A DNA stretch of 32,344 nt from Bacillota bacterium. GTDB taxonomy: Bacteria > Bacillota > SHA-98 > Ch115. The notes below the pieces were generated by a model that ran no database searches, was not told the DNA's origin, and saw nothing but the letters and a program-made list of their open reading frames with translations. Made by a program: the position numbers and the translations under genes. Numbering within the stretch: the stretch's first letter is position 1; each line of letters starts with the position of its first letter. Location: positions 1-32,344 of the forward strand of contig JABLXA010000026.1 in NCBI GenBank assembly GCA_013178415.1, in the 5' to 3' direction. Shown here piece after piece: positions 1 to 32,344 of the stretch.

Positions 1-19
1 TGAAGCGTATAATTATAGC

Positions 20-94
20 GTAGCTAGCCGTCATCATGCTGTGCCTCCATTATTTGGTTTTTGCTTACCTTAATGGTAGCACAGGGCTAGCTAC
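20..94. repeat. Large nested inverted repeat (hairpin-forming)
   Basis: Perfect 10-bp arms GTAGCTAGCC (20-29) and GGCTAGCTAC (85-94) enclose a second perfect pair, CTGTGC (39-44) with GCACAG (79-84), and a third, CCATTA (47-52) with TAATGG (71-76). The apical loop is about 18 nt and there is one 9-nt bulge on the left side. The 22 paired bases in one 75-nt element are seen directly. Whether it is an RNA structure, a transposon end or a terminator is unknown. No T-run follows it. Confidence 0.6.
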
Positions 95-124
95 TTTGTT
101 TAGCGGCAAATGTTGGATACTCAC

Positions 125-190
125 CGCATAACTAACAACCTCACCGCTACCTATCCCAAGAGTTATGCGTGCTAAGAATTTTTTCTCAGC
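125..190. repeat. Two further consecutive inverted repeats
   Basis: CGCATAACT (125-133) pairs perfectly with AGTTATGCG (161-169) across a 27-nt loop. Immediately after, GCTAAGAA (171-178) pairs with TTCTCAGC (183-190) with one mismatch across a TTTT loop. Together with the element at 20-94 this makes three hairpins in 171 bp. No coding sequence is recognised in this part of the window. Confidence 0.45.
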
Positions 191-15028: not shown

Positions 15029-15572
15029 AATGCCCCTCCCAGGGTGTGCTTCTGGGGGCATCCTAACTAAATCAGTGCGCATAAATCTTTACCACTTATG
15101 GGGATCACCTTCTTGATATTACTACCATACCTCATACCTCGGGATGATAGTAATATTTTGATTTCCGGAAGGATGCGATAACAGGCGGTCATCTTTACAT
15201 CATCCCTAAGGACGATTGACAAGGTGAGGAGTAATGGCACATTCTGAATTAAGGCATTTTGAAAGATAGTAATAGGTGACGAAGGAAATAGACGAGCGGC
15301 CTTCTAACCAGAGTCATTGCGCCGCCAGGGGGGATAACGCTAAGAGGGTAAAGGACGAAGGGTACGAGGTCTGGGTGAATACGAAAACATAGCCAGAGTT
15401 GGAGCCAATGAAGACTGCCCTTTACCCGGTCGCTTGGGGCTGTTCGAGGCAATAGCGAGACCGGCCACTGGCCATCCTTACTCTGCTCTTCTGGTGAATG
15501 TTATAGCTTTATGTTTTTGCAGAGTTGGGGAAATGAAACGAGTAGGAGCAAGGTGGTGGGTGGATAGATGCT
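15029..15572. other. Intergenic stretch, no confident gene
   Basis: Just past the MFS-LuxR stop, TGCCCC..CAG and CTGGGGGCA (about 15031-15061) can form an imperfect hairpin without a T-run, possibly the gene's terminator. The rest shows no open frame with a ribosome site and recognisable product. Confidence 0.35.
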
Positions 15573-22077: not shown

Positions 22078-22123
22078 TTATAGAAACCCCTGAAAGGAGC
22101 ATTGAACTTGGGTTACAGCTCCG

Positions 22124-22379
22124 CACTATCCCGACCGGATAGTTGCAACTATCAGCACTATTCCCGGGGGATAGTTTAAGCTATTGTCACTATCCCAACT
22201 GGATAGTGATAACCATTGACACTATTCACGCCGGACAGTTTAAGCCATTAACACCATCCCAACCGAATAGTGATAACCACCAGCACTATCCTCACTATAT
22301 AGTTTAAGCCATCGACGCTGTTCCTATCGGGTAGTGCTAACCATTTAAACTGTCCCTACCAGACGGTGCTGACTATATG
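22124..22379. repeat. Eight palindromic units in exact 32-bp register
   Basis: Units start at 22124, 22156, 22188, 22220, 22252, 22284, 22316 and 22348, each 32 bp. The best unit (22188) has CACTATCC (positions 1-8) pairing with GGATAGTG (14-21) around a 5-nt loop, then an 11-bp linker. Sequence diverges toward the hsdR side, but spacing never changes. Linkers alternate: odd units end GATAACCATTGA-like, even units TTTAAGCCATTA-like, giving a 64-bp superrepeat. It lies between the hsdR stop (22412) and the guanylyltransferase fragment. It is not CRISPR, because there are no unique spacers. Confidence 0.9.
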
Positions 22380-22411
22380 ATCTGACATTGAAGTAAGAGA
22401 AAAATCCAATA

Positions 22412-25400
22412 TTAGCTTTTCACCCAATCCTTGCAGAGCACTTCCGCCTGCTCCACTACGAGCTCGGTCGCCCGGGCCTGTTTATCCGGCGGATAGCCGT
22501 AACGCCGGAGGATTCGTTTAATCATTACGCGCATTTGGGCACGAACGTTTTCCCGCATGGTCCAATCAATTGTCAGGTTGTTCCGCACGGTGCGCACCAG
22601 TTCCTGGGCGATGGTCCGCAGGGTAGCGTTGCCCAGAACCTTCACGGCGCTGTCGTTGACCTCCAGGGCATCATAAAAGGCGACCTCGTCTTCGGTCAGC
22701 CCAAGCTTCTCGCCGCGCCGGCCGGCCTCCCGCATCTCCCTAGCCAGCGCGATGAGTTCTTCGATGACCTGTACTGCCTCGATCGCGCGGTTTTGATACC
22801 GTTTGATCGACTGCTCCAGCATTTCGGCGAAGGATCGGGCCTGGATGATGTTCTTCTTGCCACGCGTCTTAATCTCGCCTTCCAGCAGTTTGCGTAGCAT
22901 TTCGATGGCCAGATTGCGATGTGGCATCCCCCGCACTTCTGCCAGGAATTCATCCGAGAGGATGGAGATGTCGGGCTTCTTCAGTCCGGCGGCGGCAAAG
23001 ATATCGATGACTCCATCTGAGGCCACCGCCCTAGATACGATCTGGCGGATGGCATGATCCAGCTCATCGGGGCTGCGCTGCTCGCCGATCACGCTTTTAC
23101 TCAAGGCCGCTTTCACTGCCTGGAAGAAGGCCACATCGTCCCGGATTTCCAAAGCCTTTTGGTGCGGAACAGCCAACGCAAAGGCCCTGGACAGTGCTGT
23201 CACGGCCTTCGCCAGCCGGTTCTTGCCATCATCCTGCCGGAGCACGTGTTCCTGGGCGGCAGGAATTATGGAGAGCCTTTCCTGTGGCCCACCGCGCTTC
23301 CAAGGAGACCAACCAAAGCCGTGGAAGATGTCGCAACAAACCTCATACTCTCTCAGCATCACCGCCACCGCCTCTTCCTGTTCGATGGCCGTCTGCCCCT
23401 TGCCTCCGCTTTCTGTGTATGTAGCCAGTGCTTCCTTCAGCTCATGGGCCAAACCCAGGTAATCCACCACAAGGCCGCCGGGCTTGTCCTTGAACACCCG
23501 GTTCACCCGGGCGATGGCCTGCATCAGCCCGTGCCCCCGCATGGGTTTATCCAGGTACATCGTGTGCAGGCAGGGAACATCGAAGCCGGTCAGCCACATG
23601 TCGCGAACGATGACGACCTTGAACGGGTCAGCCGGATCCTTGAACCTTTTCTCTAGCTCTTCGCGCCGGGATTTGTTACGAATATGCTGCTGCCATTCCG
23701 CCGGATCTGACGCCGACCCCGTCATCACGATTTTCAGGACACCTTTGTCATCGTCATTGTGGTGCCAATCCGGCCGGATGCGGATAATAGCGTTGTAGAG
23801 ATCCACACAAATCCGGCGGCTCATACAGACCACCATGGCCTTGCCATCCATGGCCTCGAGCCGGCGCTCGAAGTGGTCGACTATATCCTGGGCGATCAAC
23901 CTGATGCGTTTTTCAGTGCCTACCAGAGCCTCCAGTTGCGCCCATTTGGTCTTAAGCCGTTCCTTGTGCTCGACCTCTTCGCCTTCGGTGACTTCCTCGA
24001 AGTCCTCGTCTAGCTTCGGCCGCTCGGCCTCATCCAGTTCCAGCTTGGCAAGGCGGCTTTCGTAGTAGATGGGGACTGTCGCCCCATCCTTTACCGCCCG
24101 CTCAATATCATAAACGCTGATGTAATCGCCGAATACCGCCCGGGTGTTCTTGTCCGTCAACTCGATGGGCGTACCCGTAAAGCCGATAAATGAGGCGTTA
24201 GGTAAGGCCTCACGCATGTACCGTGCGAAACCGTCAATAAAGTCGTATTGGCTGCGGTGGGCCTCGTCAGCGATGACCACAATGTTATGCCGGTCGGACA
24301 ATAGCGGGTAATGATCCTCGCCTTCCGCCGGGAAGAACTTCTGCACGGTGGTGAACACGACGCCGCCTGACGCTGTGTATAGAAGCTGGCGCAAGTGGGC
24401 CCGACTCTCCGCTTGAGTAGGCTTCTGACGTAGTAGCTCGTGGCAGCGAGAGAACGTGCGGAAAAGTTGACCGTCCAGGTCGTTCCGATCGGTAATCACT
24501 ACCAACGTCGGGTTTTTCATCGCCGGTTCCAGTATCACCCGCCCGGCATAGAAGGCCATGGTGAGGCTCTTGCCTGAACCCTGAGTATGCCAAATGACCC
24601 CAACACGTTGATCACCGGGCTTTGCGTCACGCTGCCCTCTAACAAAATATGTACCTTCACCGTCACGCGTCAGCCAGGGCGGAGATGACGGCGCACAAGC
24701 GCGAATGGTCTCAGCCAAAGCCACATTCACCGCGTGGTACTGATGATACCCGGCCATTTTCTTGACCAGTGCCCCGCCGCCCGTGTCCTCAAACACAATG
24801 AAATGATGAATTAGATCCAGGAATCGCCGCCGGTCGAATACGCCTTTCAGGAGCACCTCAAGCTGAGGCAGCGTCTCCGCAGCCAGTTCCCCACCCTCGA
24901 TGGTCCGCCATGGCAGGAACCATTCCCGGCCTGCCGTCAGGGTGCCGATACGGGCCTGCGTACCGTCGGAGACCACTAAAGCCTCGTTATAGGCGAAAAG
25001 TGCCGGGATTTGCTGCTTATAAGTCTGCAACTGATTGAAGGCCGACCAGATGGTGGCGTTTTCGTCGGCGGCATTCTTCAGTTCAATAACGGCCAGCGGA
25101 AGACCGTTGACGAAAAGGACAATATCCGGCCGCCTCTCATAGCGATCCTCCACGACTGTGAACTGGTTGACGGCCAGGAAATCATTGTTCTCCGGGTTGT
25201 CATAGTCAAGCACACGAACAAGATCGCCCCTTATGAAACCATCTATTCGCTGGTACTCTACCGGCACGCCCTCAACCAGGTACCGGTGTAGAGTGTGATT
25301 ATCCGCCACCAACGAGGGCTGATCCAGCCTCGTGAGCTTACGAAACGCCTCCTCCAGAGCATCCGCCGGTACATACGGGTTAAGCTGCTGGAGAGCTTGA

Positions 25401-25561
25401 CGCACGCGGCGCTCCAGGACAACTTGTCGGTATTCCCTACGCTCGGCCTGGGGCTCACCTGGCGCAATCTCCGGCCCGGAAAGGATAGCGTAGCCCAGGC
25501 TTTCTAGCCAGGCAAGGGCGGCCTGCTCGACGGTGGATTCAGTAAAACCGGAATTAGTCAT
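22412..25561 (-). CDS. hsdR: Type I restriction enzyme, motor/nuclease subunit HsdR
   Basis: 1049 aa. The N-terminal PD-(D/E)XK nuclease is visible as D146 in [11 protein letters not shown] and ELK at 160-162. The SF2 translocase has Walker A GSGKS (328-332), DEAH (432-435) with [19 protein letters not shown] (motif III region), and later motifs [15 protein letters not shown] and [20 protein letters not shown]. The C-terminal helical part binds the methylase core. The ATG overlaps the DUF1828 stop (ATGA), so translation depends on the upstream gene. An IS630 element two genes upstream separates it from hsdM/hsdS, so expression may be reduced. All catalytic motifs are intact. Confidence 0.96.
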
Positions 25562-26322
25562 GCGACAAGCTCCTCTCTCACATCCTCCCGCCTGCTCCAG
25601 GGAATCGGTCGTACACCATAGCTTCTCAGCGCCTCAAGGATATCGGTTGAGACTGACTGCTCTGAGTCATTAAGAAAGGCGTAAGCCCTTGAATTTGGGG
25701 GGCGAACTTCTTTCGTATCGATCCATGCAAACGCGAAAGCCTGGGCGGTGTCTCGACTCGGGCGATTGATGGCACGGAGAATCCGCTCCGGCTGGCGCCG
25801 CGACTTGGGGATCACGAAATCGAAAAGGTGATCATAGCCGCTTTTGCCTGTAAATTTGACCTTAGGGGTATAACGCACGTCATGGAGGTCGAGCCAGGCC
25901 ACCACATCCTCGTAAAACAGGTTGGCCACCACTGGCGCTGCCAAATAAAACATATCATTAATGGCCAGGATCGCCTGCACGAGATTATGCTTACGCAAGG
26001 CGAAATTCTCAGGTGAGGCGTGTACCTCCAGCGAAGTGTCATGAAGCTGTACCCCAAAACCGTTCAAAGTCATCTTGAGTAATTCCTGGCGCTTCGGACT
26101 CTCGAGTTTGCATCCGCTTTGCTCCAGGTCCGCGATTGTAAAGCCATCGTCGGTCAACAAATAGCCGCTATTTTCCTTCCGTGCATAAATCTGAATATAG
26201 TCGTTATGGCGATCGAGATAAGGCGTCGTAATCTCGACCCATTGACCAACCTGGCGAAGCAAGGTCTTATCCCGTAGCCATGCCAGGTAGTCATCTACAA
26301 GTTTTTGGATCTCCTGAATCAT
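25558..26322 (-). CDS. DUF1828/DUF1829 protein inside the hsd operon
   Basis: 254 aa from the ATG at 26322, which overlaps the stop of the DUF6978-like gene by 4 nt. The N-terminal half fits DUF1828 ([40 protein letters not shown]). The C-terminal half fits DUF1829 ([33 protein letters not shown]). Function is unestablished. The D-x-F-D..K/R arrangement hints at a nuclease-like core, but I cannot confirm it. Four-base overlaps on both sides tie it to hsdR, suggesting an accessory cassette in the restriction operon. Confidence 0.8.
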
Positions 26323-26684
26323 AGGAATAACCCCCGCTCGATATGCGGTGGCTGCGTGACGTTGCAGAACCGCATGAAGTCCCATAACGTAACCCAGATA
26401 TCCGATGTGTTACAGAAATGTTCAACAGGAAGGGGCATAGCCCATTTGTCGCCATAGCCCTCCCGGTACCTGTGAATGTGCGGGCAGGGAATGTCAACAC
26501 CATCCGGATTGCGGTGAGGCGGACCAGCAAGTTCGAGACGAACCAATATCACCACCTGTCGGGCGCGGTTCTGATACTTGATTTTCAATGAGTTGATCTG
26601 TCCTCTGTTAATGTCAAGAAGAAAAACCTCTCGCTTATCCGGCGACTGGAGCGGCATTACTAGTAGTCAGTTCGTAAAATAACA

Positions 26685-26713
26685 TTGCAATATGGTTGAT
26701 AGTGGTGTATAAT
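26685..26713 (+). promoter_or_regulatory. Transposase promoter
   Basis: -35 TTGCAA (26685-26690), 17-nt spacer, -10 TATAAT (26708-26713), 29 nt before the transposase ATG, with GGGGGG as ribosome site. Confidence 0.75.
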
Positions 26714-26742
26714 CTTCTCAAAGGAATTTGGGGGGATTGTGA

Positions 26743-27902
26743 ATGACACCACGAAGAGTAAGGCCAAGAATTCAATGGTCAAATGAGGAACGAATGATGT
26801 TAAGACGGATCGCCAACTCCAGAACAGAGGCCCATTTTAGGGTTACGCGGGCTAAAATACTACTGGACTTCGCGGATGGCAAGTCCGTATCCCAGATGGC
26901 CCGGGAGCTACATCTGAGCAGGCCAACTGTCGAGCGATGTATTGATAAGGCCTTGGATCTTGGCCTACAGGCAGCTCTCGAAGACCTGCCGCGTTCTGGG
27001 CGTCCTCCTCGGATATCTTCTGAAGCTAAAGCGTGGGTGGTGGAATTGGCTTGCCGAAGACCGGTAGACTTCGGGTATCCTCATGAACTTTGGACAGTTA
27101 AGTTACTGGCTGACCACGTGCGCAGGCATGCTGAAGAAGCGGGTTTTCCCAGCCTAGCGCGGGCCGGCAAGAGTGTAATCCACGGTATCCTGTCGGGGCA
27201 CTCACTACGGCCATGGGCAGTGCAGTATTATCTGCAGCGTCGGGATCCGGAATTTGAAGTTAAAAAAGCCCATGTCTTGGCGGTTTACAAGGAGGTGGCC
27301 TTACAACAGGAACGTATCAAGCAAGGACAATCATCTGATAACACCGCCGTAGTCTCAGTTGATGAACGTCCTGGCTGTCAAGTACTAAAGAATACGGCGG
27401 AGGATAGACTACCTGTTTCAGACAAGTATCCGGGGATATCACGGGACCATGAGTATATCAGGTTGGGAACCGTGTCTCTTTTAGCGGGGCTTGACATTCA
27501 GAGTGGTGTAATCCACGGTCTTGTCAGGGAGCGCCACCGGAGCAGAGAATTCATCGAGCTTCTGGAGAAGATTGATGCATACTATCCCCAAGATTGGATC
27601 ATCAAGGTTATTTGCGACAATCACTCTGCTCACATCTCCAAGGAAACCCGGGCCTATCTCAAAGGACACCAGGGACGCTTTGAGTTTGTTTTCACTCCTA
27701 AGCATGCTTCCTGGTTGAACATCATAGAATGCTCTTTAGCAAGATGTCACGCACGGTCCTACGGAGCATCAGAGCAGATTCTGTTGAAGAATTCTGCAGA
27801 CGGATTGAAACCTATTGGGCTCAACTAAATGAAGAACCTGTGGTATTCCGTTGGCATTACGAGGTTGGACAGGTTGATGAAGACCTATCTGCCATAGGAT
27901 AG
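26743..27902 (+). pseudogene. IS630 transposase, frameshifted near the C-terminus
   Basis: The frame from ATG 26743 has an N-terminal HTH (KSVSQMARELHLSRPTVERC) and the DDE catalytic core: VSVDERP, VICDNHSAH and NIIE. After NIIEC the reading frame changes. The expected continuation, LFSKMSRTVLRSIRADSVEE to QVDEDLSAIG, lies in the -1 frame and stops at 27900-27902, while the zero frame ends at 27828 with unrelated residues. The change occurs around 27728-27736. A one-base deletion is the simplest cause; no classical slippery heptamer is visible. All three acidic residues precede the break. Confidence 0.85.
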
Positions 27903-27906
27903 CAGT

Positions 27907-27935
27907 ATGACAATTTATTTGAGGAACGCTATACT
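27907..27935 (+). promoter_or_regulatory. Outward promoter at the IS630 right end (left copy)
   Basis: ATGACA (27907-27912), 17-nt spacer, TATACT (27930-27935). The last T of the -10 is the first base of the TA target duplication. Each hexamer matches the sigma-A consensus at 5 of 6 positions. In this copy it fires rightward, antisense to the DUF6978 5' part and hsdS. Confidence 0.5.
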
Positions 27936-28041
27936 AGCTTTTCACCACATAAGGGAAAATTATAATGCTGTTCATCTGCTCGATGCTTTTCCATGTTGAT
28001 TAAAGCATCGGCTTCCGCCTGCGTAAGGTCTAAATCAGCCA

Positions 28042-29325
28042 TCAGAAACACCTCCCGACAATTCGCTCCGCATCAGGAGTGCGTAGTTCTCCGAAGATCA
28101 GCTTGGGCAGAAGGGAGTCGCGCAGTGCGACGAGGGTGCGGGATTGCTCCATCGCAGACCTCATCCTCTCAAACAAGGGAGTTACTATCCGTCCAAATAC
28201 CTTTAAGACCAACGAATCGACAGCTGGAGCAATAATCTGGTAATCAGCCAGGCTAGTTGAGGGCACCCGCTGCCTACCACTCGAACCAGTCATCCGCTGA
28301 ATCGTAAATGCACGAAAATCACTATTCCGGGCCAGTAGATATGCAAATACCGTTGGGATCGGCTCTCGTGGTCGAAGTACGATATATTCGGTTGATCCCC
28401 AGCCTACCTCGCCGTCTTTCAGGAAATCCACATAGGCGGTCTTGCCATTCTCTAGGCATGGGGTAATTCGGGCAAGCAAAGTATCGCCATTAATGAACTT
28501 CATTCCTGATCCGACCTCACGCCTAATCCAGAAATCAGGAGCGTGCCCCTGGGTGGGCATACCTGCCATGTCAAGATACGGTGCGATAACTCCTCTTGGG
28601 ATATGCCTTGGGGGATTGATATCAATGAGTGCTGGTAGAGGATATATGCACCACCCTTTCGGTACTTCACCAATCTGCGATTCCTCAAATGAATCCGGAA
28701 ACAATTCGGCTATATGCGGCGCCAGTCCAGCGGGCTGCCGGCCAGCGGCCTTAGCGCGCACCGGGTCAAAGTCTATGAACCATGACTTGAAGATCGCTCG
28801 CGCCATCGCCTCCAACACTTGGTTCATCCGCCGATTCAGCTCGATCTTGTCATCCAAGGCCCCAAGGATGCAGGCGATAGCTTGCTGCTCAGCATGGGGA
28901 GGAATCCGACACATGAAGCGTGTAACGAACTCCCACTTGGCCCTTGGCATTCTCGTTCCCTCCGAGCCCCGATTCGCGGCATCAACGAAATCCTGCGAAG
29001 CCATCAAATAGAATAGAAACCTGGCATCGATACCTGGTTTTGGGCGTACTACCCAAATGTCGGTTGAACAAATACCATCAAACGGTGCCATAATCACCTT
29101 TCGGAAGTAAGGCCGAAGCTTACCGAAGAGAATATCGCCCTTGCGAAACCGCAACTTTGCACTCGTCACTTCATCCGAGCTGCCCCATCCATACAGTGAT
29201 AAGGTTCCTTCGCCTATATGCTCTAATCCAACATAGCATGCATTTCTTGCTGCCTCTGGTGAAACTGTATCGCGTACCAACGTCGCACAATCACCAAAAC
29301 TTCTGATCCACCTTTCACCTCCCAT
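28042..29325 (-). CDS. hsdS: Type I restriction-modification specificity subunit HsdS
   Basis: 427 aa from the ATG at 29325, which overlaps the hsdM end by 11 nt; the frame extends further upstream within hsdM. Two target-recognition domains are visible. TRD1 covers about 1-150 ([35 protein letters not shown]). A central coiled repeat follows, [26 protein letters not shown]2 begins near GEVPKGW and includes [20 protein letters not shown]. The spacer segment [20 protein letters not shown] is common in this HsdS class. The target sequence cannot be read from the sequence. Confidence 0.93.
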
Positions 29326-30904
29326 ACCCGATCTCCCCCAGATTCGCCCAGATCGCCTCATCCAGCCGCGCCGCCTCTTCCATTTGCTTCCGCAACTCCG
29401 CCGTCAGGCGGGCCATCTTCTCCTCAAATGGCTCATCATCCTCTTCAGTTTTAGCTGCGCCCACATAGCGGCCGGGGGTTAGGATATAGTTCTGTTGGCG
29501 GATCTCGTTTATGGTAGCCGACTTACAGAAACCGGGAATATCCTCGTAAGGAGGTAGCTCACGCTCCTCGGCCAGGGGCTGGGGCACACTGGCGCCAGCG
29601 GCGTCGCGCTTAGCGCGCCAGGCATGGTAGGTGCCAGCAATCTTCTGGATGTCCTCATCCGTCAATTCCCGGTGAACGCGGTCGATCATTGTGCCAAGCT
29701 TACGGGCATCGATGAAAAGCACATGGCCACGGCGGTCCCGGAAGCGCCCGTTCCTTTTATCGCGGGCGATGAACCAAAGGCACACCGGAATCTGCGTAGA
29801 GTAGAAGAGCTGACCCGGCAAGGCGACCATACAGTCCACCAGGTCGGCCTCGATAATGTTCTTGCGGATTTCACCCTCACCGGACTGATTGGAGGACATG
29901 GAGCCGTTGGCCAGAACGAAACCAGCCAGACCGGTGGGGGCAAGATGATGAATAAAGTGCTGAACCCAGGCAAAGTTGGCATTAGAGACCGGAGGAATGC
30001 CATACTTCCAACGCTTGTCCTCCTTGAGCAGCTCGCCGTGCCAATCGCTATCGTTGAAGGGCGGATTGGCCAGGACGTAGTCGGCTTTCAGATCAGGGAA
30101 ACGGTCGTTGTGGAAGGAGTCGCCGTGTTCGATCTTCCCGTCAATCCTCCGGATGGCTAAGTTCATTTTAGCTAGCCTCCAGGTAGTGTAATTGGACTCC
30201 TGACCGTAGATGCTAATGTCGCCAATCCTGCCGCCGTGGGCTTCGACGAACTTGTCCGACTGCACGAACATACCCCCGGAGCCGCAACAGGGGTCGTAAA
30301 CCCGGCCCTGATAGGGGGCGAGCATTTCCACCAGCAAGCGGACGACGCAGCGGGGCGTGTAGAACTGACCGCCTTTCTTCCCCTCGGCACTGGCAAACTG
30401 CGAGAGGAAGTACTCATAGACCCGGCCCAGGATATCCTTGGAACGATTCTCCCGGTCGCCCAGGCCGATGTTGCCAATAAGGTCAATGAGCTCGCCAAGG
30501 CGCCGCATGTCTAATCCGGGCTTGGCGTATTCCTTGGGTAGAACTCCCTTGAGCGATGGGTTATCGCGTTCGATGGCCAACATAGCCTCGTCGACAATCT
30601 TGCCTATACCAGTTTGTTTGGCATTGTCCCGCAAACGAGCCCACCGGGCCTCCTGTGGTACCCAGAAGATATTGATAGCGCGGTATTCGTCAGGATCCTC
30701 AGGATCAGCCCCTTCACTACGCTCAACCTCGAGTCTGGCGTGCTGCTCTTCGAAGGCATCCGAGATGTATTTGAGAAATATCAGCCCTAAGACGACGTGC
30801 TTGTATTCGGCAGCATCCATGTTGGAACGAAGCGCATCGGCAGCCTGCCACAACTCCCGCTCGAAACCGAGATTCGCCCCGTTATTGTTTTGCCTTGTCA
30901 CCAC
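29315..30904 (-). CDS. hsdM: Type I restriction-modification methyltransferase subunit HsdM
   Basis: 529 aa. The N-terminal helical domain ([30 protein letters not shown]) precedes the SAM-binding motif DPCCGSGG (204-211) and catalytic NPPF (280-283), marking an N6-adenine methylase. [17 protein letters not shown] is conserved in HsdM. The C-terminal helices ([22 protein letters not shown]) contact HsdS. The start ATG overlaps the stop of a small upstream ORF (ATGGTGA). Length and motifs are normal, so modification is likely functional. Confidence 0.96.
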
Positions 30905-32110: not shown

Positions 32111-32136
32111 TACCTGGCTCCCCCAGTCTCTACCTC

Positions 32137-32344
32137 TAGTATAGCGTTCCTCAAATAAATTGTCATACTGCTATCCTATGGCAGATAGGTCTTCATCAAC
32201 CTGTCCAACCTCGTAATGCCAACGGAATACCACAGGTTCTTCATTTAGTTGAGCCCAATAGGTTTCAATCCGTCTGCAGAATTCTTCAACAGAATCTGCT
32301 CTGATGCTCCGTAGGACCGTGCGTGACATCTTGCTAAAGAGCAC
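32137..32344 (-). mobile_element. Second IS630 copy, inverted, cut by the window edge
   Basis: The sequence from the TA at 32137 rightward is the reverse complement of the right end of the element at 26661-27936, through the last roughly 55 transposase codons (WAQLNEEPVVFRWHYEVGQV). At the very edge it reads GTGCTCTTTAGC where the left copy has ATGCTCTTTAGC, just where the left copy loses frame. The rest of the element lies outside the window. Confidence 0.92.
32138..32166 (-). promoter_or_regulatory. Outward IS630 promoter facing the HEPN gene
   Basis: On the minus strand: ATGACA (32166-32161), 17-nt spacer, TATACT (32143-32138). Transcription would start near 32131, giving a leader of about 20 nt that contains GGGGGAG before the ATG at 32110. 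This is the only promoter candidate that fits in the 27-bp gap. Confidence 0.6.

Follow-up and report, generated by a model that had tools for sequence, protein, structure and literature searches.

Dispersed arrays of 32-bp inverted units that keep a purine/pyrimidine pattern and exact spacing: putative protein-binding platforms in a Bacillota genome

The window analyzed here, a stretch of 32,344 nucleotides from a Bacillota bacterium (contig JABLXA010000026.1), contains an array of eight contiguous units at 22120-22375, each exactly 32 bp long and free of indels. About 20 unlinked arrays with the same period occur in two genera. What is kept in these arrays is a pattern of purines (R) and pyrimidines (Y), rather than the base sequence. 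With a probability that we put at roughly one half, the arrays are putative cooperative binding platforms, on which a dimeric or polymerising protein would read the R/Y pattern together with the spacing, and which have been spread in part by MITEs.

The window array has a small unassigned ORF on one side and hsdR, with its 3' end, on the other. Its register begins TTAG-CACTATCC..., 4 bp to the left of where a first-pass annotation of the sequence had placed it, and on the forward strand the units start at 22120, 22152, 22184, 22216, 22248, 22280, 22312 and 22344. Tandem Repeats Finder and a repeat finder report it as a 64/32-bp array. When the array is compared with itself at shifts of 32, 64, 96 and 128 bp, base identity is 0.61, 0.68, 0.61 and 0.66, respectively; the maximum from 2000 shuffles (shifts of 20-69 bp) is 0.40, and the best identity elsewhere in the window is 0.415. 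The eight exact 32-bp units described in that annotation are thus confirmed. At shifts of 32 and 64 bp, R/Y identity is 0.85 and 0.92, well above the base identity, and this result comes from the window array alone, independent of the profile described below. The annotation had also described two alternating linker types that give four 64-bp superunits. This holds for units 2-6, with TTTAAGC(C/T)A in units 2, 4 and 6 and GATAACCA in units 3 and 5; the alternation is broken at units 1, 7 and 8, although the 64-bp register is still the strongest of those compared.

In register, a unit reads TTAGCACTATCC-N5-GGATAGTGCTAA-CCA, with two inverted arms; dyad A is centred on the 5 nt between them and dyad B on the 3-nt linker that follows. 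In unit 1, dyad A spans 22120-22148 on the forward strand, with the left arm at 22120-22131 and the right arm at 22137-22148, and the 3-nt linker after the right arm forms the centre of dyad B. Every unit presents two inverted half-sites, CAYYRT and AYRRTG, so that there are two dyads per 32 bp; the first half-site can be seen as CACTAT at 22124-22129 (forward strand), and the inverse half-site is present in the right arm of unit 1 as ATAGTT. Given two inverted arms, a 5-nt centre and a 3-nt linker, the array can also be described as an unbroken series of 16-bp half-units in alternating orientation.

Pooling 104 units from the different arrays gives the code YYRRCAYYRTY-YYYRNYRR-AYRRTGYYRRYNR. 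Most positions are nearly pure R or Y, and the letters within a class are mixed, often at about 50:50. The only fixed letters are C5, A6, T10 and the mirrors A20 and T24, with G25 kept less strictly: A6, T10, A20 and T24 are constant in 96-100% of the units, C5 is C in 97/104 and G25 is G in 84/104, with four transitions at each of the last two. Positions 7-11 and 20-24 show 0-1 transversions each, and in most of these positions transitions amount to 30-50%. In pairwise comparisons inside arrays, the core differs by transitions at 26.0% and by transversions at 4.9%, whereas the loop of the same units differs at 26.9% and 18.5%. For reference, four-fold sites in paralogous or orthologous genes near the arrays have a transition/transversion ratio of 3.0-4.5 when divergence is low and of about 1 when it is high; by this comparison, the loop appears to evolve neutrally, unlike the arms. 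Mutation could account for some of the excess of transitions. Y-R steps recur mostly every 3 bp (by arithmetic on the pooled unit counts), out of phase with the helix, which counts against a simple bending code.

Against 724 substitutions, counted as differences from the array consensus over 3328 positions, the 104 units contain one internal indel, a 31-bp unit in array L019. Irregular steps are found at the array ends in L017, L020, L026 and L031, and full arrays otherwise keep the 32-bp step. Among MITE copies compared in the array-carrying genomes, gaps appear beside few substitutions, unlike in the units. The proposal that constant spacing with drifting sequence reflects selection on geometry is supported by this imbalance and by the recurrence of the 32-bp period in unlinked arrays.

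The window array belongs to a family. A DNA search of the window's own genome (G000) returns seven further stretches that match the window array; a profile of 64 positions, built from 30 unit pairs, returns about 14 intergenic arrays there, the window's included: two each on contigs C3 and C4, one or two on C5, three on C17, and others on C8, C26 (the window), C31, C39 and C43. The same search finds about seven arrays in G003, which belongs to the same order but to a different family, and a single short, degenerate copy in G002. Arrays were not found in 14 other genomes of the class, and they are absent from G001, a family-mate of G000. At the level of the phylum, two of the 398 genomes searched have arrays and the other 396 do not. 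This patchy distribution, together with the absence from G001, argues against a core host function. The consensus pattern has one match in the GTDB contig set, chance-like, in Paenibacillus arenosi, and zero matches in viral contigs; searches of plasmids and phages for arrays were negative, and a literature search did not find a description of such arrays. The view that the array belongs to no standard repeat class is borne out to the extent that no catalogued class matched it.

The arrays are intergenic, lie in all orientations and have unrelated genes as neighbours, and a neighbour common to them was not found among the nearest genes examined in the local gene tables (gene calls were simple ORF picks, and unit edges were placed by profile score). 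Several familiar arrangements were considered and rejected. The array is not a coding repeat: the period of 32 bp cannot be divided by 3, the frames hold stop codons, and the ORFs that overlap arrays are only short, chance ones. Nor is it a CRISPR array, which would consist of identical repeats and unique spacers; here the units are contiguous and diverged, without spacers, and the CRISPR spacers of G000 have zero matches to the arrays. Closely spaced pairs of arrays occur on C17, C4 and C5, but no transposase was seen among the genes between the C17 pair, and so the idea that two arrays form the ends of a larger transposon was discarded.

The gene for the type I restriction subunit R, hsdR, occupies 22412-25561 on the reverse strand; 37 bp separate its stop codon from the array, and the gene lies outside the element. 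A second type I restriction locus, on contig C39 of the same genome (L023, 2239-8000), is 82-94% identical to 22411-29764 of the window. The hsdR region on C39 is 91% identical, and the match ends at the stop codon, with no array there. Because this site is empty of the array and other arrays lie beside unrelated genes, the link to hsdR suggested in the first-pass annotation falls away: the tie is incidental, and the array as part of the hsd locus was rejected. Between hsdR and hsdM, at 26743-27828, the window carries an IS630-family transposase gene; since the similar hsd locus on C39 lacks this interval, it looks like an insertion.

Other genes near arrays were also considered. L013 (8283-9146, forward strand) and L019 (5220-5960, reverse strand) contain paralogous genes, 83% at the amino acid level, each 200-250 bp from an array. 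From a reading of the sequence, the product appears to be a wHTH plus restriction-endonuclease-like protein; in Pfam it has only a sub-threshold match to MarR_2. The two genes are 86% identical in DNA, and the two arrays only about 69%. Other copies of these genes lie away from the listed arrays, and a tie between gene and array was rejected. In two genera, arrays have nearby ATPase_2-like genes that are related to each other and weakly match an Mrr nuclease (L021, 2794-4626; L024, 3886-5754); possibly, these are selfish genes in intergenic niches that they have in common with the arrays.

In G003 and G002, the arrays L026-L031 are enclosed by ends that recur from copy to copy (left, CTTAGCACGCATAACCCTTGGGATGGGCAACGATGCTGGTGG; right, CAGACATCGTGTGGAGCGGATGAAGCTGACATTGGATACTTTCTTATCC...TTATGCGTGGCAAG) and that carry terminal inverted repeats. 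These array-MITEs hold one to eight units, and the ends are degraded in some copies. The same terminal repeats, shared by L026 and L031 and partly by L027-L030, bound an autonomous IS on contig C16 of G003 (L055), which is 1.7 kb long, encodes a 484-aa transposase (L055, 1940-3394) and is flanked by the duplication AAGATT. The transposase matches UPF0236, and also NF033572 with 111.4 bits; because the equivalog cut-off is 205, the IS is best described as a divergent relative of the ISKra4 family. It contains no 32-bp unit inside, and its terminal repeat includes TTAGCAC, seven letters of a common unit arm. The G002 copy (L031) is surrounded by a clean 6-bp target duplication, AACAAG; target duplications were not seen at L026 or L027. 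A MITE of about 90 bp on contig C8 of G003 (L056, 3512-3599) has the same end type (GCGCATAA) and the duplication AAAATT, without 32-bp units. The short array-MITE copies seem to derive from the long one by in-register deletion; for example, L031 consists of the left part of L026's second unit and the right part of L026's last unit. In G003 and G002, several arrays are thus the bodies of small elements, MITEs that share terminal inverted repeats with an ISKra4-like IS of these genomes, and the arrays are therefore mobile there.

In G000, inverted flanks of the arrays, the window's and the best preserved ones included, are not clearly above shuffles, and there is no match to the MITE ends beside the arrays. 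Without terminal repeats, transposition would be no more than a presumption for the G000 arrays, the window's included. The annotation had allowed that the array might be a fragment of a known transposon, which would speak against selection on spacing. Elements with ISKra4-like terminal repeats do enclose several arrays of G003 and G002; none of these repeats flanks the window array.

The first-pass annotation had also read the arms as partly co-varying and had suggested a ladder of RNA hairpins. Such a ladder, of RNA or of cruciform DNA and acting as transcript structure, would be in keeping with the strong predicted fold of the forward strand across the window array (z = -7.7) and with the 77.5% of dyad-A cells that are standard pairs, but most of the fold is the symmetry of the repeat itself. 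Compared with shuffles of partners within arrays, the arms show neither an excess of pairing nor any sign of compensatory changes: dyad A shows no covariation, with the arms slightly worse matched than in the shuffles (z = -2.3 to -2.7), dyad B, formed between neighbouring units, shows none (z = 0.1), and covariation is also absent for more distant arm partners. An independent counter agrees for dyad A. For dyad B, an unstratified counter gives a weak excess (12/500 shuffles), but this count ignores relatedness inside arrays, and the excess is gone with within-array shuffling. A-C mismatches occur at the expected frequency, with no preference for G-U over them. The arrays have no fixed orientation to genes, and the window array has no Rfam match. 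With arms that do not covary, hairpins of either kind are very improbable. Since the arms of one unit match no better than others, the symmetry is rather of the kind that a protein dimer would require, with two half-sites independent of each other; selection against true palindromes could explain why self-complementarity is slightly reduced.

The chief rival to a protein-binding platform is that the units serve a transposon, as extra transposase-binding or other element-serving sites in ISKra4-like MITEs, with the G000 arrays as old copies that have lost their ends. The arrays of G003 and G002 in which matching ends enclose one to eight units, the 6-bp duplication at L031, the autonomous IS in G003 with ends of that IS also in G000, the TTAGCAC shared by terminal repeat and unit arm, and the fact that MITE copies have gained and lost units precisely in register can all be cited for it. 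However, the autonomous IS does without any unit, and all of the G000 arrays, even the best preserved, lack terminal repeats; old endless copies should decay, yet the R/Y core and the phase persist. We consider this explanation doubtful. Still less probable is transition-only mutation, RIP-like or by a deaminase, of a GC-rich palindromic ancestor, CCGGCACCGTCC-CCGSC-GGACGGTGCCGG-CCG, which would later have undergone C-to-T and G-to-A changes. Transitions do dominate, the strictly fixed positions are mostly A/T (A6, T10, A20, T24), replacing each variable R by G and each variable Y by C throughout yields a perfect palindrome, and T at Y and A at R show a weak negative correlation inside units (r = -0.21). 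A mutator of this kind could explain part of the pattern, but not the normal loop transversions beside nearly absent arm transversions in the same units, nor the rarity of transitions at C5 and G25. Moreover, the supposed ancestor is far from every array (GC 0.44-0.59), and transition/transversion ratios are ordinary in other duplicated genes of the genome. It is also improbable that the arrays are host sites of centromere or nucleoid type, wrapped in many copies by a ParB-, Lrp- or histone-like protein. The 6-10 inverted, phased sites per array are on a scale like that of F sopC or pSM19035 parS (PMC6238139, PMC9499535), and the arrays are dispersed in intergenic DNA; against this reading, the closest family member and almost all of the phylum lack them, par-like genes are not seen among the nearest array neighbours examined, and plasmid matches are absent.

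The protein-binding platform, which is nearest to the cooperative protein-binding array suggested in the first-pass annotation, would work on double-stranded DNA as a multi-site array. Each 16-bp half-unit would show one half-site within a longer R/Y pattern. Because successive half-units are inverted, the 5-nt and 3-nt centres are both dyads and gapless coverage is possible; a dimeric or polymerising protein could thus cover the array unbroken, with every second contact three helical turns off. The protein would read mainly the order of purines and pyrimidines, through purine N7 contacts and/or step geometry, along with a few exact A/T contacts, so that transitions would be tolerated and transversions and indels would not. 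Selection would keep class and phase while the letters drift, and arrays may gain or lose whole units and reach new intergenic sites, in G003 and G002 as MITE bodies with ISKra4-like ends. We infer the binding, the dimeric or cooperative nature and identity of the protein, and the benefit, whether to host or transposon, from these patterns.

The window array does not show the full defining features of any named known system, although the arrays would fit the broad kind of mobile or dispersed arrays of putative protein-binding repeats. REP and BIME sequences are similarly short, palindromic, dispersed and intergenic, with multiple units in alternating orientation. However, REP units are conserved in sequence and form hairpins, whereas the array arms do not covary, and BIME spacing is not known to follow an exact 32-bp phase. 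The IS that shares the MITE ends is related to the ISKra4 family through its transposase, which scores below the family cut-off, and the IS does not include the arrays. The F plasmid sopC site has twelve 43-bp repeats with inverted 16-bp motifs (PMC6238139), and the pSM19035 parS site consists of contiguous heptads, with contiguous sites being required (PMC9499535). Both resemble the arrays in being tandem binding sites (putative here) of regular geometry, but they occupy one or a few plasmid loci, are accompanied by par genes of their own and have kept their sequence well, in contrast to about 14 chromosomal arrays that have drifted to an R/Y pattern. In Galileo, internal tandem repeats are reported to hold additional transposase-binding sites (PMC4079207). 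Galileo and Tetris, which are MITEs or foldback elements, resemble the array-MITEs in being non-autonomous, in sharing terminal repeats with an autonomous relative and in having internal tandem repeats that vary in number; they differ in being eukaryotic, with 220-bp repeats inside their TIRs, and are not known to have an exact phase or an R/Y code. They also have ends, whereas most arrays here, including all of those in G000, do not.

It is possible, although we offer it only tentatively, that the arrays represent a dispersed chromosomal system in which recognition depends not on base sequence but on R/Y order and an exact spacing of 16/32 bp. With recognition by R/Y class, copies could diverge almost wholly in letters and stay functional, escaping both homologous recombination and hairpins. 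If a protein binds the arrays, it would read purine versus pyrimidine and geometry across long stretches; to our knowledge, natural sites with these as the main determinant are hardly documented. The arrays would then be a mobile means of sowing high-order binding platforms across a bacterial genome. Since about 20 natural arrays are available that differ in sequence and follow a single R/Y code, the model is directly testable.

Three further features of the window were seen. The sole Rfam match in the window is a c-di-GMP-II-GAG riboswitch at 15392-15472 on the forward strand (55.7 bits; gathering threshold 40), upstream of an ORF of 666 aa that weakly matches CarboxypepD_reg. The contig end is marked by a perfect repeat of 208 bp (27730-27937 and 32136-32343). 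At the other end, positions 1-178 (reverse strand) are the end of an ISKra4-like IS, with the terminal repeat TCTTAGCACGCATAA that also bounds the array-MITEs of G003 and G002; such an end is also found at the end of G000 contig C12 (L060). In the window, the IS end is followed at 218-254 by a CRISPR repeat, GTTGCAGTCCTTGACCCGATGACGAGGGGATTGAAAT, and at the C12 end 30 repeats of this type run into the IS. Probably, the ISKra4-like IS split a CRISPR array and broke the assembly at the C12 end and the window start.
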